A stretch of 64,000 bases of DNA, taken from contig JAFIEK010000006.1 of the NCBI GenBank assembly GCA_020832545.1, positions 62,001 to 126,000 of the forward strand, read 5' to 3'. Below the pieces are notes generated by a model. It was not told the DNA's origin. It worked only from the letters and a program-made list of their open reading frames with translations, and made no database searches. Positions within the stretch are counted from its first letter, which is position 1; each line of letters starts with the position of its first letter. This document shows positions 1,768 to 12,128 of this stretch, in pieces. This DNA comes from Pararhodobacter sp. (GTDB taxonomy: Bacteria > Pseudomonadota > Alphaproteobacteria > Rhodobacterales > Rhodobacteraceae). A program made the translations under genes and the position numbers.

Positions 1768-1803
1768 AGCGGGGGAGTGCAACGCGAAGGGAGAGCGCGG
1801 GGC

Positions 1804-2340
1804 GTGTTCAAAGACCAGCATCATGAGTGGCTGCGCGGGTTCCGGCGCAATCTATTCGGTTATGCCTGCGCGCTGACCACAGACACGGCGCGTGCCGAAG
1901 ACCTGTATCAGGATGCGCTGGTGCGCGCGATGGCAGCACGCTCGGTGCCCGCTGAACAGATCAGCTTCCGGGTGTGGATGTTCCGGTTGCTGCGCAACCT
2001 CTGGATCGACAGCCTGCGCGCGCGCAAACGCCGGATTGCGCTTATGGATGAGCAGGCCGGGGTTGATTGCGACGACCGTTTCACCACTGGCGGCGAAGAG
2101 CGGGTGGTGAACCAGATGGCTGTGCGACAGGCCTTCATGCAGCTGTCCAAGGATCACCGCGACGTTCTGGCACTGGTGGACATCGGGGGCTTCAGCTATG
2201 ACGAGGCGGCAACTTTGCTAGACGTGCCCCGGGGAACCATCATGAGCCGTGTCAGCCGCGCCCGTTCCGCTTTGGCCTGCCAGTTGGCAGAAGGGCCGGT
2301 GGTGGGGCTTCCGCTGACGACAAGGCGGCGGGCGCTATGA
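1804..2340 (+). CDS. ECF-family RNA polymerase sigma factor
   Basis: 178 residues from the GTG at 1804. I prefer this start because GGGAG lies about ten bases upstream; a GTG at 1777 would add nine residues but has its purine run directly against it. Region 2 is visible as LYQDALVRAM followed by RVWMFRLLRNLWIDSLRARKR (core binding and -10 recognition). Region 4 is DHRDVLALVDIGGFSYDEAATLLDVPRGTIMSRVSRAR, a helix-turn-helix for the -35 element. There is no extra C-terminal domain. It overlaps the anti-sigma gene by four bases (ATGA), the usual arrangement of a sigma factor with its antagonist. The inducing signal cannot be read from sequence. Confidence 0.88.
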   Translation: MFKDQHHEWLRGFRRNLFGYACALTTDTARAEDLYQDALVRAMAARSVPAEQISFRVWMFRLLRNLWIDSLRARKRRIALMDEQAGVDCDDRFTTGGEERVVNQMAVRQAFMQLSKDHRDVLALVDIGGFSYDEAATLLDVPRGTIMSRVSRARSALACQLAEGPVVGLPLTTRRRAL

Positions 2341-3107
2341 CTGTCGCGCCGGTGCCTGATTCCACCCTCAACGCCTATGTCGATGGCGAGTTGAGCAGCC
2401 ACGAGGCCGCCGCGCTGGCCCACCGTGCGGCGCATGACCCGGGTGTCGCTGCGCGGATTGCCCAGCTGCATCACATCAAGGCCGCCGTGGGTGCGCTGGC
2501 CGATGATCTGGATTTTGCCGACCCGCCAGAGTTTTCACGCCCCTCGCGGGCATTACGCTGGCCGCGCCGCGCGCTTTTTGCCGTGGCCGCGGTGCTGGTG
2601 TTGGCGCTGGGTGTGGCCCGGGTGCTGGTGCCTCAAACCGGCCCCGACACCGCGGTTGAGACTGCCCGCAGCCCGCTGGTGGAGGGTCATGACAGCTGGT
2701 CGGCCGCGTTCGAGCGCAGCCATGACGTGCCGGTCGCCCCGGAATGGCTGGAAGGGCTGATGACGGCCACCGGCCTGACGCTGGTACATGCCGCGCCCAG
2801 TGTAGCGGGAACGGACCGGGTGATGCATTACGCCTTTGTCGGGGCCAACGACTGCCGGCTCAGCCTGTTCGAACACCTGATGCCCGGCGAAGTGGATATG
2901 GCGCTGAGTGTCGAGTTCGAGGGCGCGCTTTCGACCGCGCGGTGGCAGATGCACGGCTTTGGCTACACGATGGTCGCGCGCGACATGGACCGCGCCCGCT
3001 TCACCACCATCGCCGCCGCCGTGCTGGACGTCACCCGCATCCGGGCGCCGGTGGGCGAAGCGATTGTCGCCAGCCTGCGCGCGGCACGCCAGCGCTGCAC
3101 GGTGTGA
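2337..3107 (+). CDS. Membrane-anchored anti-sigma factor
   Basis: 256 residues. The first 50 or so resemble the sigma-binding anti-sigma domain (NAYVDGELSSHEAAALAHRAAHDPGVAARIAQL). A single membrane helix follows at roughly residues 78-98 (LFAVAAVLVLALGVARVLV), leaving a periplasmic domain of about 150 residues that could sense a signal. I see no HxxxCxxC zinc motif, so it is not a ZAS-type (ChrR/RsrA) redox anti-sigma. The ATGA overlap with the sigma gene supports the pairing. It should hold the sigma factor at the inner membrane until the periplasmic part is altered or cut. The periplasmic domain family was not identified. Confidence 0.75.
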   Translation: MTVAPVPDSTLNAYVDGELSSHEAAALAHRAAHDPGVAARIAQLHHIKAAVGALADDLDFADPPEFSRPSRALRWPRRALFAVAAVLVLALGVARVLVPQTGPDTAVETARSPLVEGHDSWSAAFERSHDVPVAPEWLEGLMTATGLTLVHAAPSVAGTDRVMHYAFVGANDCRLSLFEHLMPGEVDMALSVEFEGALSTARWQMHGFGYTMVARDMDRARFTTIAAAVLDVTRIRAPVGEAIVASLRAARQRCTV

Positions 3108-4009: not shown

Positions 4010-4912
4010 TCAGACCTGCGGTGCCATGAAGCTGCGGCGGAAGTAGTCATAGAGCAGTTGCTGCTCGGGCGAGAATTCGGTGTTGCGCCGCCATGCCAGC
4101 CCCACATCCATTGACGGCACCGCGTAATCGGTCTGCACGGTATGCAGCCGCTTGCCCTCCAGCGACCATGGCCGGTAGACCATATCCGACAGGATGGTCA
4201 CGCCCTGATGATCCGCCACCATCGAGCGCACAGCCTCGATGGACGAGGTGCGCAACTTGATGCGCGGCTGGGCCTTTTGCAGCGACCAGTATTTCATGGA
4301 ACTGTGCGCCGCCTCATCGACGGTCAGGAGGATGTAATCTTCCTCGGCGATTTCCTCCATCGTCACCTTGCGGCGCTGGGAAAAGCGGTGGCTGTTGCCC
4401 ACCCAGAGCCGCCGGGGCGAGCGAAAGAGGGTTTCGGTATCCAGTTCAGGTGTGGTGATGTTCGAGGTCAGAATGACCGCCATGTCGAAGCGGTTCGACA
4501 TCAGCCCCTCTTCGATCGCCTCGCGGTTCAGTTCATGCAGGTTGATCGTCAGCTCCGGGTGCAGGCGGCGCAACCGGCCCAGATGATAGGGCAGGAAATA
4601 TCCGATCACCGTATAGGTGGCGGCGATTGTCAGCGTGCCGGTCAGCGCTGTGGCCCGGTAGCGCAGGTTGCGCGCCTCTTCGATCTTGGCGAGCACCTCA
4701 TAGGCCACCGCCAGCAACTCGCGCCCCGGCGGCGTCAGCTCCATGCCTTGGGGGCTGCGTTCGAACAGTCGCAGGCCGATATCGCCCTCCAGTTCACGGA
4801 TCGCCGTGGTGATCGAGGATTGTGAGACCGACAGCGATACCGCCGCCCGGCTGACCTGCCCGGATTCGGCGGTGGCCACAAAGTACTTCAGCTGTCGCAC
4901 ACGCATGGCCAA
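4010..4912 (-). CDS. LysR-family regulator of the divergent LamB/carboxylase operon
   Basis: 300 residues, the usual length for LysR. The N-terminal winged helix reads RQLKYFVATAESGQVSRAA and SVSQSSITTAIRELEGDIGLRLFER, followed by the linker helix and an effector-binding domain from about residue 90. It is transcribed away from the 5135-13138 operon. The shared gap carries two perfect copies of a T-N11-A dyad, one 11-13 bases upstream of this gene's start and one in front of the operon, as expected for a LysR protein that represses itself and activates its neighbour. The co-inducer is probably the transported compound or a product. The start could also be the second Met at 4906. Confidence 0.88.
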   Translation of the reverse strand: MAMRVRQLKYFVATAESGQVSRAAVSLSVSQSSITTAIRELEGDIGLRLFERSPQGMELTPPGRELLAVAYEVLAKIEEARNLRYRATALTGTLTIAATYTVIGYFLPYHLGRLRRLHPELTINLHELNREAIEEGLMSNRFDMAVILTSNITTPELDTETLFRSPRRLWVGNSHRFSQRRKVTMEEIAEEDYILLTVDEAAHSSMKYWSLQKAQPRIKLRTSSIEAVRSMVADHQGVTILSDMVYRPWSLEGKRLHTVQTDYAVPSMDVGLAWRRNTEFSPEQQLLYDYFRRSFMAPQV

Positions 4913-4922
4913 GCCCCCGTCT

Positions 4923-4939
4923 GTATCGGAAAATCCGAA
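4923..4939 (-). promoter_or_regulatory. LysR-type operator, copy 1
   Basis: The 17 bases GTATCGGAAAATCCGAA contain the dyad TCGGA-AAA-TCCGA, an exact T-N11-A LysR box. The site begins 11 bases upstream of the lysR start, so binding would block lysR expression. The same 17 bases recur as the reverse complement at 5044-5060. Confidence 0.75.
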
Positions 4940-5043
4940 AATGCATCGTCAAAAAATCAGATAATGGAAGGCATCAGAATTTGCAACTCGCCTGTGAATG
5001 CTTGTTATTATTAGATTTGCAGGGGGTTGGGCGGCCAGGGGCG

Positions 5044-5060
5044 TTCGGATTTTCCGATAC
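5044..5060 (+). promoter_or_regulatory. LysR-type operator, copy 2
   Basis: This is the exact reverse complement of the site at 4923-4939 and contains TCGGATTTTCCGA at 5045-5057. Its centre is about 84 bases upstream of the pxpA start, a suitable place for an activator-binding site. The centres of the two copies are about 120 bases apart, which would allow looping or cooperative binding by a LysR tetramer. Confidence 0.75.
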
Positions 5061-5134
5061 TGAACCAACAGAATTGAGAAATTTACTAATGACGAAGATC
5101 CGGCATACTGTTGATGAAACGAGGGTGGAGCGCA

Positions 5135-5917
5135 ATGAAACGCATCATTGATCTGAACTGCGACATGGGCGAGGGCTTTGGCCACTGGAGCTATGGTGAC
5201 GCCCCTGATGAGGCCCTGATGGCGGTGATCAGCTCGGCCAATGTCGCCACCGGCTTCCACGCGGGCGATCCCAGCCTGATGAACCGGGTTGTGGCGCTGG
5301 CCAAGGATCATGGGGTCAATATCGGCGCACATCCGGCCTACCGCGATCTGCAGGGCTTCGGGCGGCGCTACATGAAGTGTTCCGATGAAGAACTGGTCAA
5401 CGACATCATCTATCAGATTGGTGCGCTGCGTGAATTCTGCCGCCGTCACGGCGTGCGCCTGCAACATGTCAAACCGCACGGCGCGCTTTACATGGAGGCA
5501 GCGACGAACGAGAGCCTGTCGAACCATCTGGTGGAGGTGCTGCGCGCCTGTGCGCCGGAGCTGATGTTGTTTTGCATGGATATATCCGTCACATATACGG
5601 TGGCGCGGTCTTTCGGCCAGCCGGTGATCCGCGAGTTCTACGCGGACCGCGAATATGACAGTTCAGGCTCTATCGTCTTTGCCCGCAAGGTCGCCCAGTT
5701 CGACCCCGACCAGATCGCCCGCAAATGCCTGCGCGCCTGCCGTGAAGGGCGGGTGGAGACGGTGGAGGGCGGCGATATCCCCATCGCGTTTGACTCGATC
5801 TGCTTTCATTCCGACACCCCCGGTGCGCTGGAGATCGGCCGCGCGGTGCGCGCCGCCCTGACTGAAAACGGCATCTCTATCGCCTCGGCGACGACGGTGC
5901 TGGAAACTGCTGCCTGA
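5135..5917 (+). CDS. pxpA: LamB/YcsF family protein, 5-oxoprolinase subunit A-like
   Basis: 260 residues from the ATG at 5135, chosen because GGTGGAG sits just upstream and because the protein then starts with the family's N-terminus ([11 protein letters not shown]). Conserved family blocks follow: [24 protein letters not shown] and HVKPHGALY, with histidines suited to metal or catalysis. PxpA works with PxpB and PxpC to open 5-oxoproline (pyroglutamate) to glutamate using ATP in the cytoplasm. Here, unlike the plain pxpABC operons, a biotin carrier and a biotin carboxylase lie between subunit A and subunits B/C, so the substrate or mechanism may differ. It is the first gene of the operon and follows the second LysR box. 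Confidence 0.85.
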
Positions 5918-5944
5918 AACGCTGCCTGACAGGAGAGACTGACC

Positions 5945-6178
5945 ATGCCCGATATCCTTTCCCCCCTTCCCGGCACTTTCTACCACGCTCCGGACCCCAA
6001 GGCAGAGGCCTTCAAGAAGCCCGGCGACGCGGTCGCCGCCGAGGATACGATCGGACTGGTGGAGGTGATGAAGACCTTTATCGAGGTCAAGGCCGAGGTC
6101 GAGGGCACCTTCGACGGCTATGTGGCCGGCAACGCAGAGCCGGTTCAGGCCGGCGACACGCTGGCAAAGGTGCGCTGA
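5945..6178 (+). CDS. Small biotin carboxyl carrier protein
   Basis: 77 residues, a free-standing biotinyl domain without the long Ala/Pro linker of AccB. The biotinylated lysine should be K43 in EVMKT (AccB elsewhere in this window has EAMKT). The domain opens with LSPLPGTFY, matching the first strand of biotinyl domains, and closes with VQAGDTLAKV. It should be biotinylated by BirA, charged with CO2 by the adjacent biotin carboxylase, and deliver carboxyl groups to the KipI/KipA pair. It lies 27 bases after pxpA and 3 bases before the carboxylase gene, so co-expression is almost certain. Confidence 0.87.
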   Translation: MPDILSPLPGTFYHAPDPKAEAFKKPGDAVAAEDTIGLVEVMKTFIEVKAEVEGTFDGYVAGNAEPVQAGDTLAKVR

Positions 6179-6181
6179 GCC

Positions 6182-7549
6182 ATGGCGATCCGCAAACTTC
6201 TTGTTGCCAACCGCGGCGAGATTGCGGTTCGCATCATCCGCGCCGCAAAGTCGCTGGGTATCGCCACGGTTCAGGTGCATTCCGAGGCGGACACAGAAAT
6301 GCTGGCCGTCCGGCTGGCCGATGAGGCCATTTGCATCGGCCCGGCGGCGGCGGCAAAGTCGTATCTGTCGATCCCGGCGATAATGAAAGCCGCGCAGGAT
6401 ACGGGCGCCGATGCCGTCCATCCGGGCTATGGCTTTCTGTCCGAGAACCCCCGCTTTGCCCGCGCCGTGGCCGATGCCGGGCTGATCTTTGTCGGCCCTG
6501 ATGCCGCGACCATAGAGCGGATGGGTGACAAGGTCGCCGCCCGCATCGCCGCCGAGGCGGCGGGCGTGCCGGTGGTGCCCGGTTCCAAAGGCCGGGTTGA
6601 GGATGAGGCCACCGCGATGGAGGCCGCACTTACTGTGGGCTTTCCGGTGCTGATCAAGGCCGCTGCCGGGGGCGGCGGCAAGGGTATCCGCATCGCCCAT
6701 GACGCGGACGAACTGGCACGCCTTGCCCCGCAGGCCCGCGCAGAGGCCGAGGCGGCCTTTGGCGATGGCGGGCTCTATATCGAAAAGGTCATCGTCAACC
6801 CGCGCCATATCGAAGTGCAGGTTCTGGGTGACGGCAAGAACGCCGTGCATTGCTATGAGCGTGAATGCTCGCTGCAACGCCGCCGCCAGAAGGTCTGGGA
6901 AGAGGCAGGGGCCTTTGGTCTGTCCGACGCCACCCGCGCCTCGCTTTGCGACAGTGCAGTCGCGCTGGCCAAAGCGGTGGGCTACAGCGGCGCGGGCACG
7001 GTTGAATACCTGTATGACGATGCCAGCGGGGACTACTACTTTATCGAGATGAACACCCGCATTCAGGTCGAACACCCGGTCACCGAGATGGTCACCGGCA
7101 TCGATCTGGTGGCCGAGATGCTGAAGATTGCAGGCGGCGCGCCCTTGTCGCTGCGGCAAGACCAGATCGCGGTCACCGGCCATGCGATCGAAGTGCGCAT
7201 CAATGCCGAAGACCCGTTGCGCCAGTTCATGCCCTTTCCCGGCAAGCTGACGTCCCTTCAGGTGCCGCAAGGCGAAGGCATCCGCTTCGATCACTTTCTT
7301 TATGAAGGCTACCAGATCCCGCCATTCTACGATTCGCTTCTGGGCAAGCTGATCGTGCACGCGCCTACACGCGCGGCGGCGATCGACAAGATGGCCGAGG
7401 CCCTGAGCACGCTTGAACTGGGCGGGCTCAAGACAACGATCCCCTTGCACCGGGCGCTTGCCGCATCCCCGGATCTGCGCGCGGGGCAAGTTCATACGCT
7501 GTGGCTGGAGCCATGGCTCGCAGCCGGAAACCTGACTGCACCAGCATAG
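6182..7549 (+). CDS. Biotin carboxylase subunit (accessory, AccC-like)
   Basis: 455 residues with the complete biotin carboxylase layout: N-terminal RKLLVANRGEIAVRIIRAAK, an ATP-grasp glycine loop GGGGKG at 163-168, and the signature [15 protein letters not shown] at 288-302. It uses ATP and bicarbonate to carboxylate biotin on the carrier protein. It is not the housekeeping AccC, which is at 36243. The segment HCYERECSLQRRRQK (223-237) differs from [15 protein letters not shown] in that protein. Placement with a carrier and KipI/KipA suggests a split form of a urea-carboxylase-like enzyme rather than acetyl-CoA carboxylase. Confidence 0.88.
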   Translation: MAIRKLLVANRGEIAVRIIRAAKSLGIATVQVHSEADTEMLAVRLADEAICIGPAAAAKSYLSIPAIMKAAQDTGADAVHPGYGFLSENPRFARAVADAGLIFVGPDAATIERMGDKVAARIAAEAAGVPVVPGSKGRVEDEATAMEAALTVGFPVLIKAAAGGGGKGIRIAHDADELARLAPQARAEAEAAFGDGGLYIEKVIVNPRHIEVQVLGDGKNAVHCYERECSLQRRRQKVWEEAGAFGLSDATRASLCDSAVALAKAVGYSGAGTVEYLYDDASGDYYFIEMNTRIQVEHPVTEMVTGIDLVAEMLKIAGGAPLSLRQDQIAVTGHAIEVRINAEDPLRQFMPFPGKLTSLQVPQGEGIRFDHFLYEGYQIPPFYDSLLGKLIVHAPTRAAAIDKMAEALSTLELGGLKTTIPLHRALAASPDLRAGQVHTLWLEPWLAAGNLTAPA

Positions 7550-7559
7550 GAGGGACGAC

Positions 7560-8435
7560 GTGAAAACCCGCTACACCTTTGGCGGTGATGAGCACATCTT
7601 CGTCGAAATGGATGACGAGATGTCGCTTGAGGCCTTTTTCAAGGCCATCGCCATCGCCCGTGCCGTCGAGGCCGCAAAAATCGAGGGCGTGACCGAGATC
7701 CTGCCCGCAAACGCCTCGTTCGAGGTCCGTTTCAACCCTGACGTCATCCATCCTGATGTGATGATGGCCCGGTTGAAAGAGCTGGAAGGCGCGGCCAACA
7801 ACGCCGAGCCCCGGATGAAAACGCGCATCATCGAGGTTCCGGTCTATTATCAGGACCCCTGGACGCATGAGACGGTAATGCGCTTTCGCGAGCGCCATCA
7901 GGACCCCAACGCCACCGATCTGGAATATGCCGCGCGTATCAACGGCTATGACAGTGTCGAAGCGTTCATCGAGGCGCATCATGCGAACCCGTGGTTCGTG
8001 TCGATGGTCGGTTTTGTGTCAGGCCTGCCGTTCCTTTACCAACTGGTCGAGCGTGAGAAACAGATCGAGGTGCCCAAATATCTGCGACCGCGCACCGACA
8101 CGCCCAAACAGACAGTCGGCTATGGTGGCTGCTTCTCATGCATCTATTCGGTGCGTGGGGCGGGCGGGTACCAGATGTTCGGCATCACGCCGATGACGAT
8201 CTATGACCCCGAACAGAAGGTCTCGTATCTCAAGGACTTTCTGGTGTTCTTCAAGCCCGGCGACATCGTGAAATGGAAGCCGATCGACCGCGCTGAGTAT
8301 GACAGCATTCTCGAACAGGTCGCGGCGGGCACCTATACGCCGCGCATGGCCGAGGTGGAGTTCGATCTCGATGCGTTCAACGCCGATATGTCTGGCACCA
8401 ACGCGAAGCTGATGGAGGCTCTCAATGGCAATTAA
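7560..8435 (+). CDS. pxpB: KipI-type carboxyltransferase subunit, 5-oxoprolinase subunit B-like
   Basis: 291 residues from a GTG with a strong AGGAGGG nine bases upstream. The chain matches the KipI (COG2049, 'allophanate hydrolase subunit 1') family, with the hallmark block NPWFVSMVGFVSGLPFLYQL and then TVGYGGCFSCIYSVRGAGGYQMFG. It is longer than plain PxpB (about 230-240 residues); the extra parts resemble the first half of the carboxyltransferase domain of urea carboxylase. Together with the next gene it should form the catalytic carboxyl-transfer or ATP-using half-enzyme. It overlaps the next gene by 11 bases. Confidence 0.85.
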   Translation: MKTRYTFGGDEHIFVEMDDEMSLEAFFKAIAIARAVEAAKIEGVTEILPANASFEVRFNPDVIHPDVMMARLKELEGAANNAEPRMKTRIIEVPVYYQDPWTHETVMRFRERHQDPNATDLEYAARINGYDSVEAFIEAHHANPWFVSMVGFVSGLPFLYQLVEREKQIEVPKYLRPRTDTPKQTVGYGGCFSCIYSVRGAGGYQMFGITPMTIYDPEQKVSYLKDFLVFFKPGDIVKWKPIDRAEYDSILEQVAAGTYTPRMAEVEFDLDAFNADMSGTNAKLMEALNGN

Positions 8436-9399
8436 GGTCAGAAAGGCCGGGCTTTCCACCACCATTCAGGATATGGGACGCCCCGGATATTTCCATCTTG
8501 GTATCCCCGAGGGCGGTGCGATGGACCGCTTTTCAATGCGGGTGGCCAATATGCTGGTTGGCAATGACGAAGGCGCGGCGGGGCTTGAAGCCGTGTTCAT
8601 GGGGCCTGAGCTGGAATTCACCAAAGACACCTGGGTTGCGGCCACAGGGGCCACCATGCCGATCCTGCTGGACGGCGAGCCGCGTGAGGGCTGGAGCGCG
8701 TTTCCGGTCAAGGCCGGGCAGGTGCTCAGCTTTGGGTTTCTGAAAGAGGGCGCGCGCGTCTATCTGGCCTTTGCCGGCGGGATCGATACGCCGATGCAGC
8801 TTGGCTCACGCTCCACATATCCGATCGGCGCACTGGGCGGTGTGAATGGCCGCGCCATTGCGGTGGGGGATGAGCTGCCGCTGGGCACGCCGGGCAAGAC
8901 GGCGGCGCGCAGTGTCGATGCCGCGCTCTTGCGCCCCAAACAATCGCCGGTGGCGCTGCGGGCCTTGCCGGGGCTCTACTGGCACCGCATCACCGAGGCT
9001 TCGCAAGAGAAGTTCTTTGCCGAAGACTGGACCGTTGCGCCTGAGGCCGACCGCATGGGCTACCGCTTCCGCGGCGGCGCACCGATGGAGTTTGTGCCGC
9101 GCGAACAGCCCTTCGGGGCCGGGTCGGACCCGTCGAATATTGTCGATGGCTGCTATTCCTACGGCTCCATTCAGGTGCCCGGTGGGACCGAGCCGATCGT
9201 TCTACACCGCGATGCGGTGTCAGGCGGGGGGTACTTCACCATCGGCGCGGTGATTTCCGCCGATATGGACCTGATCGGACAGCTGCAACCGAACACGAAA
9301 GTCCGTTTCGTCAAGGTGGATATGGAAACGGCACTGGCTGCGCGCAAGGACCGGCGCGCGCGGCTTCAGAAAATCCGGGAGGCACTGGCGGCGGGCTGA
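8425..9399 (+). CDS. pxpC: KipA-type carboxyltransferase subunit, 5-oxoprolinase subunit C-like
   Basis: 324 residues, typical for KipA/PxpC ('biotin-dependent carboxyltransferase', COG1984). Recognisable blocks are KAGLSTTIQDMGRPGY at the N-terminus, PEGGAMDRFSMRVANMLVGN, and the centre YLAFAGGIDTPMQLGSRSTY with GGVNGRAIAVGDEL. KipI plus KipA correspond to the two halves of the carboxyltransferase domain of urea carboxylase and also to PxpB/PxpC of 5-oxoprolinase. With a biotin carrier and biotin carboxylase just upstream, a complete split biotin-dependent carboxylase is encoded. The likely acceptor is a lactam or ureido nitrogen, which is inference. Confidence 0.87.
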   Translation: MAIKVRKAGLSTTIQDMGRPGYFHLGIPEGGAMDRFSMRVANMLVGNDEGAAGLEAVFMGPELEFTKDTWVAATGATMPILLDGEPREGWSAFPVKAGQVLSFGFLKEGARVYLAFAGGIDTPMQLGSRSTYPIGALGGVNGRAIAVGDELPLGTPGKTAARSVDAALLRPKQSPVALRALPGLYWHRITEASQEKFFAEDWTVAPEADRMGYRFRGGAPMEFVPREQPFGAGSDPSNIVDGCYSYGSIQVPGGTEPIVLHRDAVSGGGYFTIGAVISADMDLIGQLQPNTKVRFVKVDMETALAARKDRRARLQKIREALAAG

Positions 9400-9482
9400 C
9401 CCGCGCCCGCCAGCGCTGCCCTTTCAACGAAAACCGTGGCGTCAACCACGGCCAACGACCCGCAACAGAGGAGATCTGAACG

Positions 9483-10556
9483 ATGACTCATGCCATGAGA
9501 ACACTTGCCCTTTTGGGGGCGACCGCGCTTGTGCCCTTCGCGGCCAGCGCCGATGACGCCTGGTACCCGTTCCCGGCGCAGGCGATTGAGCCCGCCTTTG
9601 CCACCGACGGCGAGTCCGTCGCGGTGGATTATGTGCCGCTTGAAGCGGCCTCGCAGCCTTGGAACATCTGCGTCTCGTTCCCGCATATGAAAGACGCCTA
9701 TTGGCTGGGCGTCAACTACGGCGTGATCGAGGAAGCGCGGCGTCTGGGCGTGCGTATGTCCGTGGTCGAGGCCGATGGCTACACCGAACTGCCCCGCCAG
9801 ATCAGCCAGATCGAAGACTGCGTTTCGGCGGGTGCGGATGCGGTGATCATCGGCGCGATCTCGTTCGACGGGCTGAACAGTCTGGTGCGCGAAGTGGCCG
9901 CTCAGGATATTCCGGTGATCGACGTGATCAACGGCATGTCCTCAACCGATCTGACCGCCAAGTCGCTGGTTTCGTTCCATACCATGGGCTATGAGACTGG
10001 CCGCTATCTTGCCGAGGCCCACCCGGCGGGCAGCGATGAAGTTTCGGTGGGCTGGTTCCCCGGGCCTGCGGGCGCGGGCTGGGTGGAAGCGGCGCATCGC
10101 GGCTTCATGGAGGCGGTCGAAGGCTCGGCCGTGCGCGTGCTGGAACCGCGCTATGGTGACACGGGCCGCGAGGTGCAGCAGCGTCTTGTCGAGGACGTGC
10201 TGACCGCCAACCCCGAGGTGCGCTATGTCGCGGGCACCGCCGTGACCGCCGAGGCCGCGCAAGGCGTGGTGCGCGAGCGCGGGTTGCAAGGCCAGGTCGA
10301 TATTCTGGCCTTCTACATGACGCCGGGTGTCTATACCGGCATCCAGCGCGGCATGATCCTGGGCGCACCTGCGGATTCGATGGTCATTCAGGGCCGGATC
10401 GCTGTCGATCAGGCGGTGCGCGCGCTGGAGGGCGAAGAGCTGATCCGCCATGTCGGGCCGCAGATCTTTGTGGTCGATCAGGATAACATCGCCGAGATTG
10501 CCCGCGATGCGATCCTGCCGCCTGACGGCTTTTCGCCGGTGTTCAGCGTCAACTGA
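9483..10556 (+). CDS. TorT-like periplasmic substrate-binding protein
   Basis: 357 residues with a signal peptide cut near ASA-DDAW (residues 23/24) and a preceding GAGGAG ribosome site. The mature part has the type I periplasmic-binding fold, and its block NICVSFPHMKDAYWLGVNYG (61-80) together with ADAVIIGAISFDGLN and VIDVINGMSS is what I associate with the TorT family. E. coli TorT binds TMAO for the TorS kinase, but no tor genes occur here; instead a ribose-type ABC ATPase and permease follow. I therefore read it as the solute receptor of that transporter, with a small methylated or cyclic nitrogen compound as a plausible ligand. The 83-base gap before it contains a 6-bp hairpin (9434-9451). 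Confidence 0.82.
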   Translation: MTHAMRTLALLGATALVPFAASADDAWYPFPAQAIEPAFATDGESVAVDYVPLEAASQPWNICVSFPHMKDAYWLGVNYGVIEEARRLGVRMSVVEADGYTELPRQISQIEDCVSAGADAVIIGAISFDGLNSLVREVAAQDIPVIDVINGMSSTDLTAKSLVSFHTMGYETGRYLAEAHPAGSDEVSVGWFPGPAGAGWVEAAHRGFMEAVEGSAVRVLEPRYGDTGREVQQRLVEDVLTANPEVRYVAGTAVTAEAAQGVVRERGLQGQVDILAFYMTPGVYTGIQRGMILGAPADSMVIQGRIAVDQAVRALEGEELIRHVGPQIFVVDQDNIAEIARDAILPPDGFSPVFSVN

Positions 10557-10563
10557 TGACAAC

Positions 10564-10591
10564 GCGCAGGCCGGTGTTTCCCGGCCTGCGC
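10564..10591 (+). other. Hairpin after the binding-protein gene
   Basis: GCGCAGGCCGG (10564-10574) and CCGGCCTGCGC (10581-10591) form a perfect 11-bp stem with a six-base loop, starting 7 bases after the binding-protein stop codon. There is no T-run, so it is not a classical terminator. Such stems between binding-protein and transporter genes commonly stabilise the upstream mRNA and lower downstream expression, giving excess binding protein. Confidence 0.65.
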
Positions 10592-10625
10592 CCCTTGCCC
10601 GTATCCCGGGCCGCAAAGGCACGCC

Positions 10626-12128
10626 ATGACGCAGCCCCCATTGATCAGCACGCACGATCTGAGCAAGGCCTATCCCGGCGTCAAGGCGCTGGACAGTGTG
10701 GATTTCGACCTGCGCGCCGGTGAGGTGCATGTGCTTTTCGGCGAGAATGGCGCGGGAAAGTCAACACTGATCTCGCTTCTGGCCGGGGCGAATACCCCCA
10801 CATCGGGCGAGGTCCGCGTGAATGGCCAGCCGGTGAGTATTGCCTCGGTCGCCGAGGCGCAGGCGCTTGGAATTTATACCGTTTTTCAGGAGTTCTCGCT
10901 GATCCCCACAATGAGTGTGGCCGAGAACATCTTTCTGGGGCGTGAGCCAAAGGCCGGCCCCTTCGTCAACCACCGCCTGATGCGGCGCGAGGCGGCGCGG
11001 ATGCTGGCTGAGCGCGGCTTTGAGATCGACCCGGCTGCGATGGTCGCGCAACTGCCGCGCGCCCAGCAGCAGATGGTCGAGATTGCCAAGGCGTTTCACG
11101 GCGATCTGTCGGTGCTGATCCTTGATGAGCCCACCGCCTCGCTCAGCAACCGTGAGGTTGATCATCTGTTCGAGTTTGTCTTGCGGATGAAGGCGGCGGG
11201 GCTGGGGATCATCTATATCTCGCACCGCATCAATGAATTCGCCCGCATCGCCGACCGGGTGACGGTGCTGCGCGACGGCGCGAAAATTGATACCGTGGCG
11301 ATGTCGGACACCAATGATCAGGCGCTCATTGCCATGATGGCCGGGCGCGAGATCACCGATGTCTATCCGCAGATCAACCACGCACCCGGCGAGGTGGTGC
11401 TGAACGTTGAAAACCTGCACGCCTGGGGCGTGGACGGGGTTGATCTGAGCGTGCGCCGGGGCGAGGTGCTGGGCATTGCGGGGCTGGTTGGATCAGGCAA
11501 GTCACGGATGTTTCGCGCCATTGCCGGGGTCAACGCCACCCGCGAAGGCCGTGTGCAGTTCCGGGGCAAGGACATAACCGGCCAGATCACCCGCAAGGTG
11601 ATGGCGGCGGGGCTTTACTACCTGACCTCGGATCGCAAGCACGAGGGGCTGAACATGGCCGCCCCCGCAACCGATAACCTGACCATCGATCTGATGATGG
11701 GAAGCTGCGCCAATGGCCCGTTCCTGCGCCACCGGGCGATCGGACAGGAGATGGCGCGCATCTTTGATCATGTCGAACTGCACGCCCATTACCGCGCCCG
11801 CACCATTGCCCAACTGTCCGGTGGGAACCAGCAGAAGGTTCTGTTTGCAAAGAGTTTTTGTCATGGCAGCGAGCTTTACATCTTTGACGAGCCCACGGTT
11901 GGCGTAGACATGGGCACGCGCGCGGCCCTCTACCGGCTGATCGCCGAACTGGCCGAGGCGGGCAAGGCGGTGGTGGTCATTTCATCCGATCTGCCCGAGG
12001 TGATGAACCTTGCCAACCGGGTGGTGGTGATGGCCCAGGGCCGGGTCAGCGCCGAACTGACGGGCGATGCGATCAACGAAGCCGACATCCTGAAACACTT
12101 CTTCCAAGAGACCGGAGCAGACGCATGA
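10626..12128 (+). CDS. Ribose-type (RbsA/MglA-like) ABC transporter ATPase
   Basis: 500 residues with two tandem ABC domains, as in carbohydrate-uptake CUT2 transporters. The first has Walker A GENGAGKST (39-47) and Walker B VLILDEPTASLS. The second has a modified Walker A GLVGSGKSR, signature LSGGNQQKVLFAK and Walker B LYIFDEPTVGVD. Degeneration of the second site is normal in this family. It overlaps the permease gene by four bases. Although the family is best known for sugars, CUT2 systems also carry other small solutes, and the TorT-like receptor argues against a simple sugar. Confidence 0.9.
   Translation: MTQPPLISTHDLSKAYPGVKALDSVDFDLRAGEVHVLFGENGAGKSTLISLLAGANTPTSGEVRVNGQPVSIASVAEAQALGIYTVFQEFSLIPTMSVAENIFLGREPKAGPFVNHRLMRREAARMLAERGFEIDPAAMVAQLPRAQQQMVEIAKAFHGDLSVLILDEPTASLSNREVDHLFEFVLRMKAAGLGIIYISHRINEFARIADRVTVLRDGAKIDTVAMSDTNDQALIAMMAGREITDVYPQINHAPGEVVLNVENLHAWGVDGVDLSVRRGEVLGIAGLVGSGKSRMFRAIAGVNATREGRVQFRGKDITGQITRKVMAAGLYYLTSDRKHEGLNMAAPATDNLTIDLMMGSCANGPFLRHRAIGQEMARIFDHVELHAHYRARTIAQLSGGNQQKVLFAKSFCHGSELYIFDEPTVGVDMGTRAALYRLIAELAEAGKAVVVISSDLPEVMNLANRVVVMAQGRVSAELTGDAINEADILKHFFQETGADA

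Follow-up and report, generated by a model that had tools for sequence, protein, structure and literature searches.

Genes and features of the locus

In the window, i.e., the whole 64-kb stretch of DNA that was analyzed, a LysR-type regulator gene and a pxpA-type gene were found in divergent orientation across a long spacer, and four further genes follow pxpA (Table 1). The lysR product showed the Pfam domains HTH_1 (6.4e-20) and LysR_substrate (2.2e-40), i.e., the domain content of a LysR-type regulator. Its start could instead be a TTG at 4912, which would add two residues. The pxpA product, searched over 5138-5917, i.e., without the first Met, matched Pfam PF03746 (1.1e-90) and the PxpA subfamily model NCBIfam NF003814 (297 bits, cut-off 226).

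The genes after pxpA were named by family searches, and tblastn matches to all four (5945..9399) were found in most of the relatives' loci described below. The biotin carrier and biotin carboxylase genes are placed within the pxpA/B/C-like operon (region 5135-12128). In the equivalog test for the 5-oxoprolinase PxpABC, the PxpB-like protein scored 74.6 against a cut-off of 145.55 (TIGR00370) and the PxpC-like protein 230 against 500 (NF045499); the domain model TIGR00724 exceeded its cut-off (268 against 230). Because the PxpB- and PxpC-like proteins are below the 5-oxoprolinase cut-offs, the enzyme of the operon may be a relative that depends on biotin and uses a different substrate. Downstream of the operon, genes of a TorT-like binding protein and then an ABC ATPase, the latter named from sequence, were observed. 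At 1777-3107, two overlapping ORFs resemble, by eye, an ECF sigma factor and an anti-sigma factor.

Table 1. Genes and predicted regulatory features of the lysR-pxpA locus, in positions of the window.
Feature	Position	Strand	Description
lysR	4010..4906	-	LysR-type regulator, 298 aa from ATG 4906
Box 1 (site A)	4923..4941		palindromic predicted operator adjoining lysR; dyad 4926-4938, centre 4932; 23.4 bits
Site B	4946..4964		degenerate third dyad, intact TCAGATAA half, centre 4955; 12.0 bits
Box 2 (site C)	5042..5060		palindromic predicted pxpA-promoter operator; dyad 5045-5057, centre 5051; 19.1 bits
Conserved block GAAATTTACT	5078..5087	+	+27 to +36 from box 2 centre
Predicted pxpA -10, CATACT	5104..5109	+	spacing of 16 bp to TTTACT; start predicted near 5116
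pxpA-type gene	5135..5917	+	LamB/YcsF family, ATG at 5135
Biotin carrier gene	5945-6178	+	family searches
Biotin carboxylase gene	6182-7549	+	family searches
CT_C_D/pxpB-like gene	7560-8435	+	family searches
CT_A_B/pxpC-like gene	8425-9399	+	family searches

Paired dyads in the spacer

Two exact copies of a 17-mer were confirmed at 4923-4939 and, as the reverse complement, at 5044-5060, one before lysR and the other before pxpA, as the preliminary description had placed them. Each contains the 13-bp dyad TCGGA-N3-TCCGA, which fits T-N11-A as had been claimed. The separation of 121 bases given there is correct for the starts of the 17-mers, and the dyad centres are 119 bp apart. The inverted orientation is real in that the copies are exact reverse complements, but the dyad itself is palindromic, so the orientation is informative only through a few flanking bases. 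Box 1 is located 17-33 bp upstream of the lysR ATG and box 2 75-91 bp upstream of the pxpA ATG, i.e., the T-N11-A dyad by which an LTTR operator is recognized is present beside a divergently encoded target gene. The centre of the degenerate site B is 23 bp from that of box 1 and 96 bp from that of box 2.

Even when up to 3 mismatches are allowed, the 17-mer matches nowhere else in the window. In dinucleotide shuffles, two or more matches were obtained in 1 of 100, with a mean of 0.06.

Conservation among LysR relatives

The relatives were the best 80 of 99 LysR matches from a scan of genome contigs. Among these 80, a pxpA-type neighbor is divergent from and faces lysR in 76. The exceptions are L045, L091 and L095, in whose loci pxpA was not found, and L089, in which pxpA does not face lysR; the contig of L091 ends 574 bases before lysR, so the absence is uninformative there. 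When the spacers were analyzed by expectation-maximisation, two seeds led to one and the same palindrome,.tATCggAAATTccGATa. in printed form and written here as TATCKGAWWWTCMGATA.

The search of related genomes for the sites beside orthologous operons, proposed in the preliminary description, was run, and the lack of conservation that would have spoken against that description was not observed. The dyad reached at least 11.0 bits in 73 of 76 spacers of these best 80 of 99 relatives, this score being the 99th percentile for best sites when spacers are base-shuffled. The count is partly in-sample, because 29 alphaproteobacterial spacers, that of the window among them, served to train the matrix. 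No dyad of 11.0 bits was found in the spacers of L062, L072 and L096. Removal of near-copies thins 77 spacers to 68. The nearest relatives, L017, L018 and L019, carry both boxes.

A second matrix was built from 21 loci outside the clade of the window, by using pxpA-side sites only, whose positions had first been located with a matrix that included this clade. By this matrix, box 1 (23.4 bits) ranks first in the 64 kb, box 2 (19.1) second and site B (12.0) third, and the next match has 8.0 bits. The spacers were shuffled by single bases, and since the shuffles rarely give any match with the 21-locus matrix, they show the rarity of a chance match and not the significance of clustering given a match. 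The recurrence of the motif in relatives supports reading the boxes as LysR operators.

The exactness of the two copies, stressed in the preliminary description, is not conserved. Because the copies differ in L017, the identity in the window reflects two near-consensus sites. A recent duplication of the box was also considered and set aside as not needed, since the L017 copies differ.

Association of the motif with the regulator

Among 149 family genomes, a pxpA homologue (E 1e-30) is present in 99 and the LysR (E 1e-80) in 10. As a control, 30 loci from among the pxpA matches listed were fetched and sites were scored within 300 bp upstream. Nine of these loci have a LysR of at least 58% identity, and their sites scored 14.5-23.4 bits; these nine include the window, and three of them also belong to the relatives' set. 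Two loci with a diverged LysR (45-47%) scored 22.2 and 11.2 bits. In the remaining 19, without such a LysR in the fetched locus, no site exceeded 10.1 bits within 300 bp upstream. By this difference between loci, the motif accompanies the regulator rather than the enzyme gene. A degenerate 15-mer was also searched over the 149 genomes and was rejected as too loose, with matches in 73 against 10 genomes with the LysR.

The locus (4010-9399) is patchy in its own genus, where a LysR of E 1e-80 or better was found in 3 of 18 genomes, that of the window included. Together with the 10 of 149 family genomes, this suggests that the lysR-pxp locus is an accessory or horizontally moved module.

Layout of the sites in Alpha- and Betaproteobacteria

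For comparison of the layout, 39 alphaproteobacterial loci were aligned, i.e., 28, among them the window, with long spacers (206-264 bp) and 11 with short ones (122-131 bp); lengths count the three bases of the pxpA ATG. Five of the 28 come from the family-genome search, and the set does not include L025 (a near-copy of L024), L043, L044, L049, L061, L068, L087 and 36 betaproteobacterial loci. A pxpA-side site, the counterpart of box 2, was found in all 39 loci with best scores of 10.1-25.6 bits. The dyad lies 84-92 bp from the pxpA ATG in 36 of the 39, a distance bounded by construction, since the alignment was anchored on a site sought within a preset range.

A short block follows the pxpA-side site at a fixed distance, spanning about +27 to +37 across the 39 loci. 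In long loci, A at +29 and T at +31 are present in 28/28, and in short loci G at +27 and T at +31 in 11/11. The sequence is mostly GAAWTTTAC in long loci, while most short loci have GAAATAYCAA and not TTTAC.

Of the 28 long spacers, 27 hold a second, lysR-side site of at least 9 bits; in that of L104, no second site of 9 bits was detected. The distance from the best upstream site to the box 2 counterpart is near-fixed, at 94-96 bp in 16 loci and 118-119 bp in seven of the 28, in two classes that were named after the data were seen. Distances of 88, 105, 111 and 128 bp occur in one locus each. The window, with its spacing of 119 bp, falls in the second class and in addition has the degenerate site B at 96 bp; in L019, the sites at both distances are strong. 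In the 16 loci of 94-96 bp, the intervening DNA has a median identity of 0.32 against 0.29 when shuffled, and the distance varies by 2 bp, in a group defined by the distance itself.

A quick tree was built with betaproteobacterial rows thinned to 15 and without L097, L098, L099 and L101, which are repeats. In this tree, the 16 loci of the 95-bp class all fell in a single supported group, which has 21 rows. The 119-bp loci adjoin three short-spacer loci with weaker support (94). Because the spacing classes follow the tree, their counts are not independent, and the classes are probably inherited settings under constraint rather than independent inventions.

Each of the 11 short spacers holds a single box, located at 25-42 bp from lysR and at 85-100 bp from the pxpA ATG, and this box could serve both genes. 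These loci (L022, L026, L032, L046, L047, L052, L053, L054, L059, L064 and L090) have roughly the distances to lysR and to pxpA that are seen on the two sides of a two-box spacer. They look as if a deletion had merged the two boxes into one, and they stand at three places in the quick tree.

In seven further alphaproteobacterial spacers, a second site of at least 9 bits, at least 60 bp from the best one, was found in six. In L043, the site near lysR is strong, and nearer pxpA the score is 6.7 bits. In betaproteobacterial spacers, a second site of at least 9 bits is present in 6 of 36 and none in 30, and the best site lies 119-146 bp from the pxpA ATG in 34 of 36. This position and the scarce second sites mean that the geometry is not universal. 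The single dyad is the feature in common, and the twin layout is chiefly alphaproteobacterial. The putative dual operator of the preliminary description is thus supported as far as the sites are conserved and their pairing is usual in Alphaproteobacteria, but it does not extend to the short alphaproteobacterial spacers or to most betaproteobacterial ones.

Predicted promoter and control

The conserved block overlaps a candidate -35 hexamer, TTTACT (5082-5087), and is possibly an activation site. It matches the dyad matrix poorly in the window (-1.4 bits). With the predicted -10, the element TTTACT-N16-CATACT has 8 of 12 consensus matches, counted by hand, and is under the promoter-scan threshold; the scan of 4880-5160 gave no sigma-70 promoter that passes it. 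The CATACT is also seen in L017, and A at +56 is found in 23 of 28 long loci. With a start near 5116, as predicted from this 8-of-12 promoter, box 2 would be near -65 and is most likely the recognition site for pxpA. On the other side, the candidate hexamers for lysR in the window are not conserved among relatives, as judged by eye, and the lysR promoter could not be placed.

Both boxes are very probably operators of the divergent LysR, with box 2 activating the pxpA operon and box 1 serving autoregulation of lysR. A LysR tetramer would bind box 2 and make a second contact at the conserved -35 block. In the presence of an inducer derived from the substrate, the tetramer would activate the operon pxpA-accB-accC-pxpB-pxpC. 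At box 1, with site B 23 bp behind it, LysR would be held over the lysR leader or promoter and limit its own synthesis. We infer binding, the tetramer, the promoter positions, both regulatory effects and the inducer from the DNA sequence.

Alternative readings

The two operators could instead form one looped unit, in which LysR at box 1 or site B touches LysR at box 2 and the spacing is functional, as in ThnR. We consider this possible but doubtful. The two prevailing distances in long spacers agree with it, as does the near-random DNA between the sites where the distance is kept. A distance of 95-96 bp corresponds to about nine helical turns of 10.5 bp (about 9.1 for the 96 bp to site B), and ThnR is reported to loop between sites 55 bp apart, for which the same helix face is needed (PMC4834489). 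However, 119 bp is about 11.3 turns, which is not integral, and only one box is present in the short loci and in most betaproteobacterial spacers. In addition, common descent makes the counts for these loci non-independent, and the classes are post hoc. In its fullest form, which is rather unlikely, sites A, B and C and the -35 block would together make up a single looped LysR complex that is co-operative, has two evolved spacings (about 95 and about 119 bp) and can collapse to a single shared box. If true, the loci would be a natural series for how operator spacing sets LTTR autoregulation.

That another regulator binds the boxes, with LysR as a bystander, is very unlikely. The dyad fits an LTTR box, it recurs beside LysR relatives in both Alpha- and Betaproteobacteria, it is present with the two diverged LysRs of the control, and it falls to 10.1 bits or less upstream of the 19 fetched pxpA homologues that have no LysR in the locus. 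An action of the inverted repeat as an RNA or DNA structure, i.e., a hairpin or terminator, is hardly to be expected at all. The arms do reach 20 nt at 95% (4920-4939 and 5044-5063), but they are 104 nt apart, a terminator-like site was looked for and none was found, some spacers have only one box, and each box, being palindromic, is conserved individually.

Comparison with known systems

In LTTR practice, a T-N11-A box is often near -65, with an activation site at -35 (PMC8407307, PMC11602165). The locus has in common with the divergent control described for AccR-accS (PMC11602165) and BsrA (PMC8407307) the divergent LTTR gene, the T-N11-A dyad, the predicted recognition site near -65 and the block at a possible -35. 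It differs from these accounts in its long spacer, a second full palindrome beside the regulator gene and a degenerate third. AccR is reported not to autoregulate (PMC11602165), unlike the autoregulation proposed here.

ThnR at thnB/thnC is similar in that a single divergent intergenic region holds two distinct primary sites for one LTTR (PMC4834489). As described there, the sites are 55 bp apart, whereas those in the window are 119 bp apart (96 bp to site B). The ThnR sites serve thnB and thnC, and thnRY has its own constitutive promoter, whereas one side here is the regulator's gene. The loop is reported by that source for ThnR and is hypothetical here.

PxpR of Corynebacterium glutamicum is likewise a dedicated divergent pxp regulator with a palindromic operator (PMC13274462). 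It is described as a GntR-type repressor with another operator that binds 5-oxoproline, whereas the regulator here is LysR-type and did not qualify as GntR. The operon here additionally holds the biotin carboxylase and carrier genes. The authors of that report state that, to their knowledge, the regulation of bacterial 5-oxoproline metabolism had previously been unstudied (PMC13274462). In the literature searched, which did not extend to RegPrecise and subscription journals, no LysR regulator of such a pxp-type operon was found.

The control would be of an ordinary kind, well supported by comparison, and the twin operators leave the understanding of LysR regulation unchanged. The analysis yields a sharp operator motif and a predicted promoter map for a LysR regulon not found described in the literature searched, i.e., the alpha- and betaproteobacterial regulon of a pxp-type operon that includes biotin genes. 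The layouts with one box and those with two also form a natural series at near-fixed spacing.

Further dyads in the genome

The exact 13-mer occurs at one other place in the genome of the window, within an ORF of 279 codons. With up to one mismatch, it was found at 16 places, 14 of them besides the pair, and 13 of the 14 were reported inside a mechanical ORF of at least 90 codons, by a weak test in that a neighboring place was scored for L009 and L016 and box 2 itself is within such an ORF. A wider regulon was set aside, since these dyads, including that of L011, are possibly due to chance. The site fetched from the nearest relative as most similar to that of L011 is in unrelated sequence. The L011 site (1498-1516; G000:C48:2708-2722), the only extra dyad outside an ORF, is a perfect ATCGGATATTCCGAT of 19.4 bits, located 96 bp before an ORF that resembles, by eye, a metal-type ABC binding protein.
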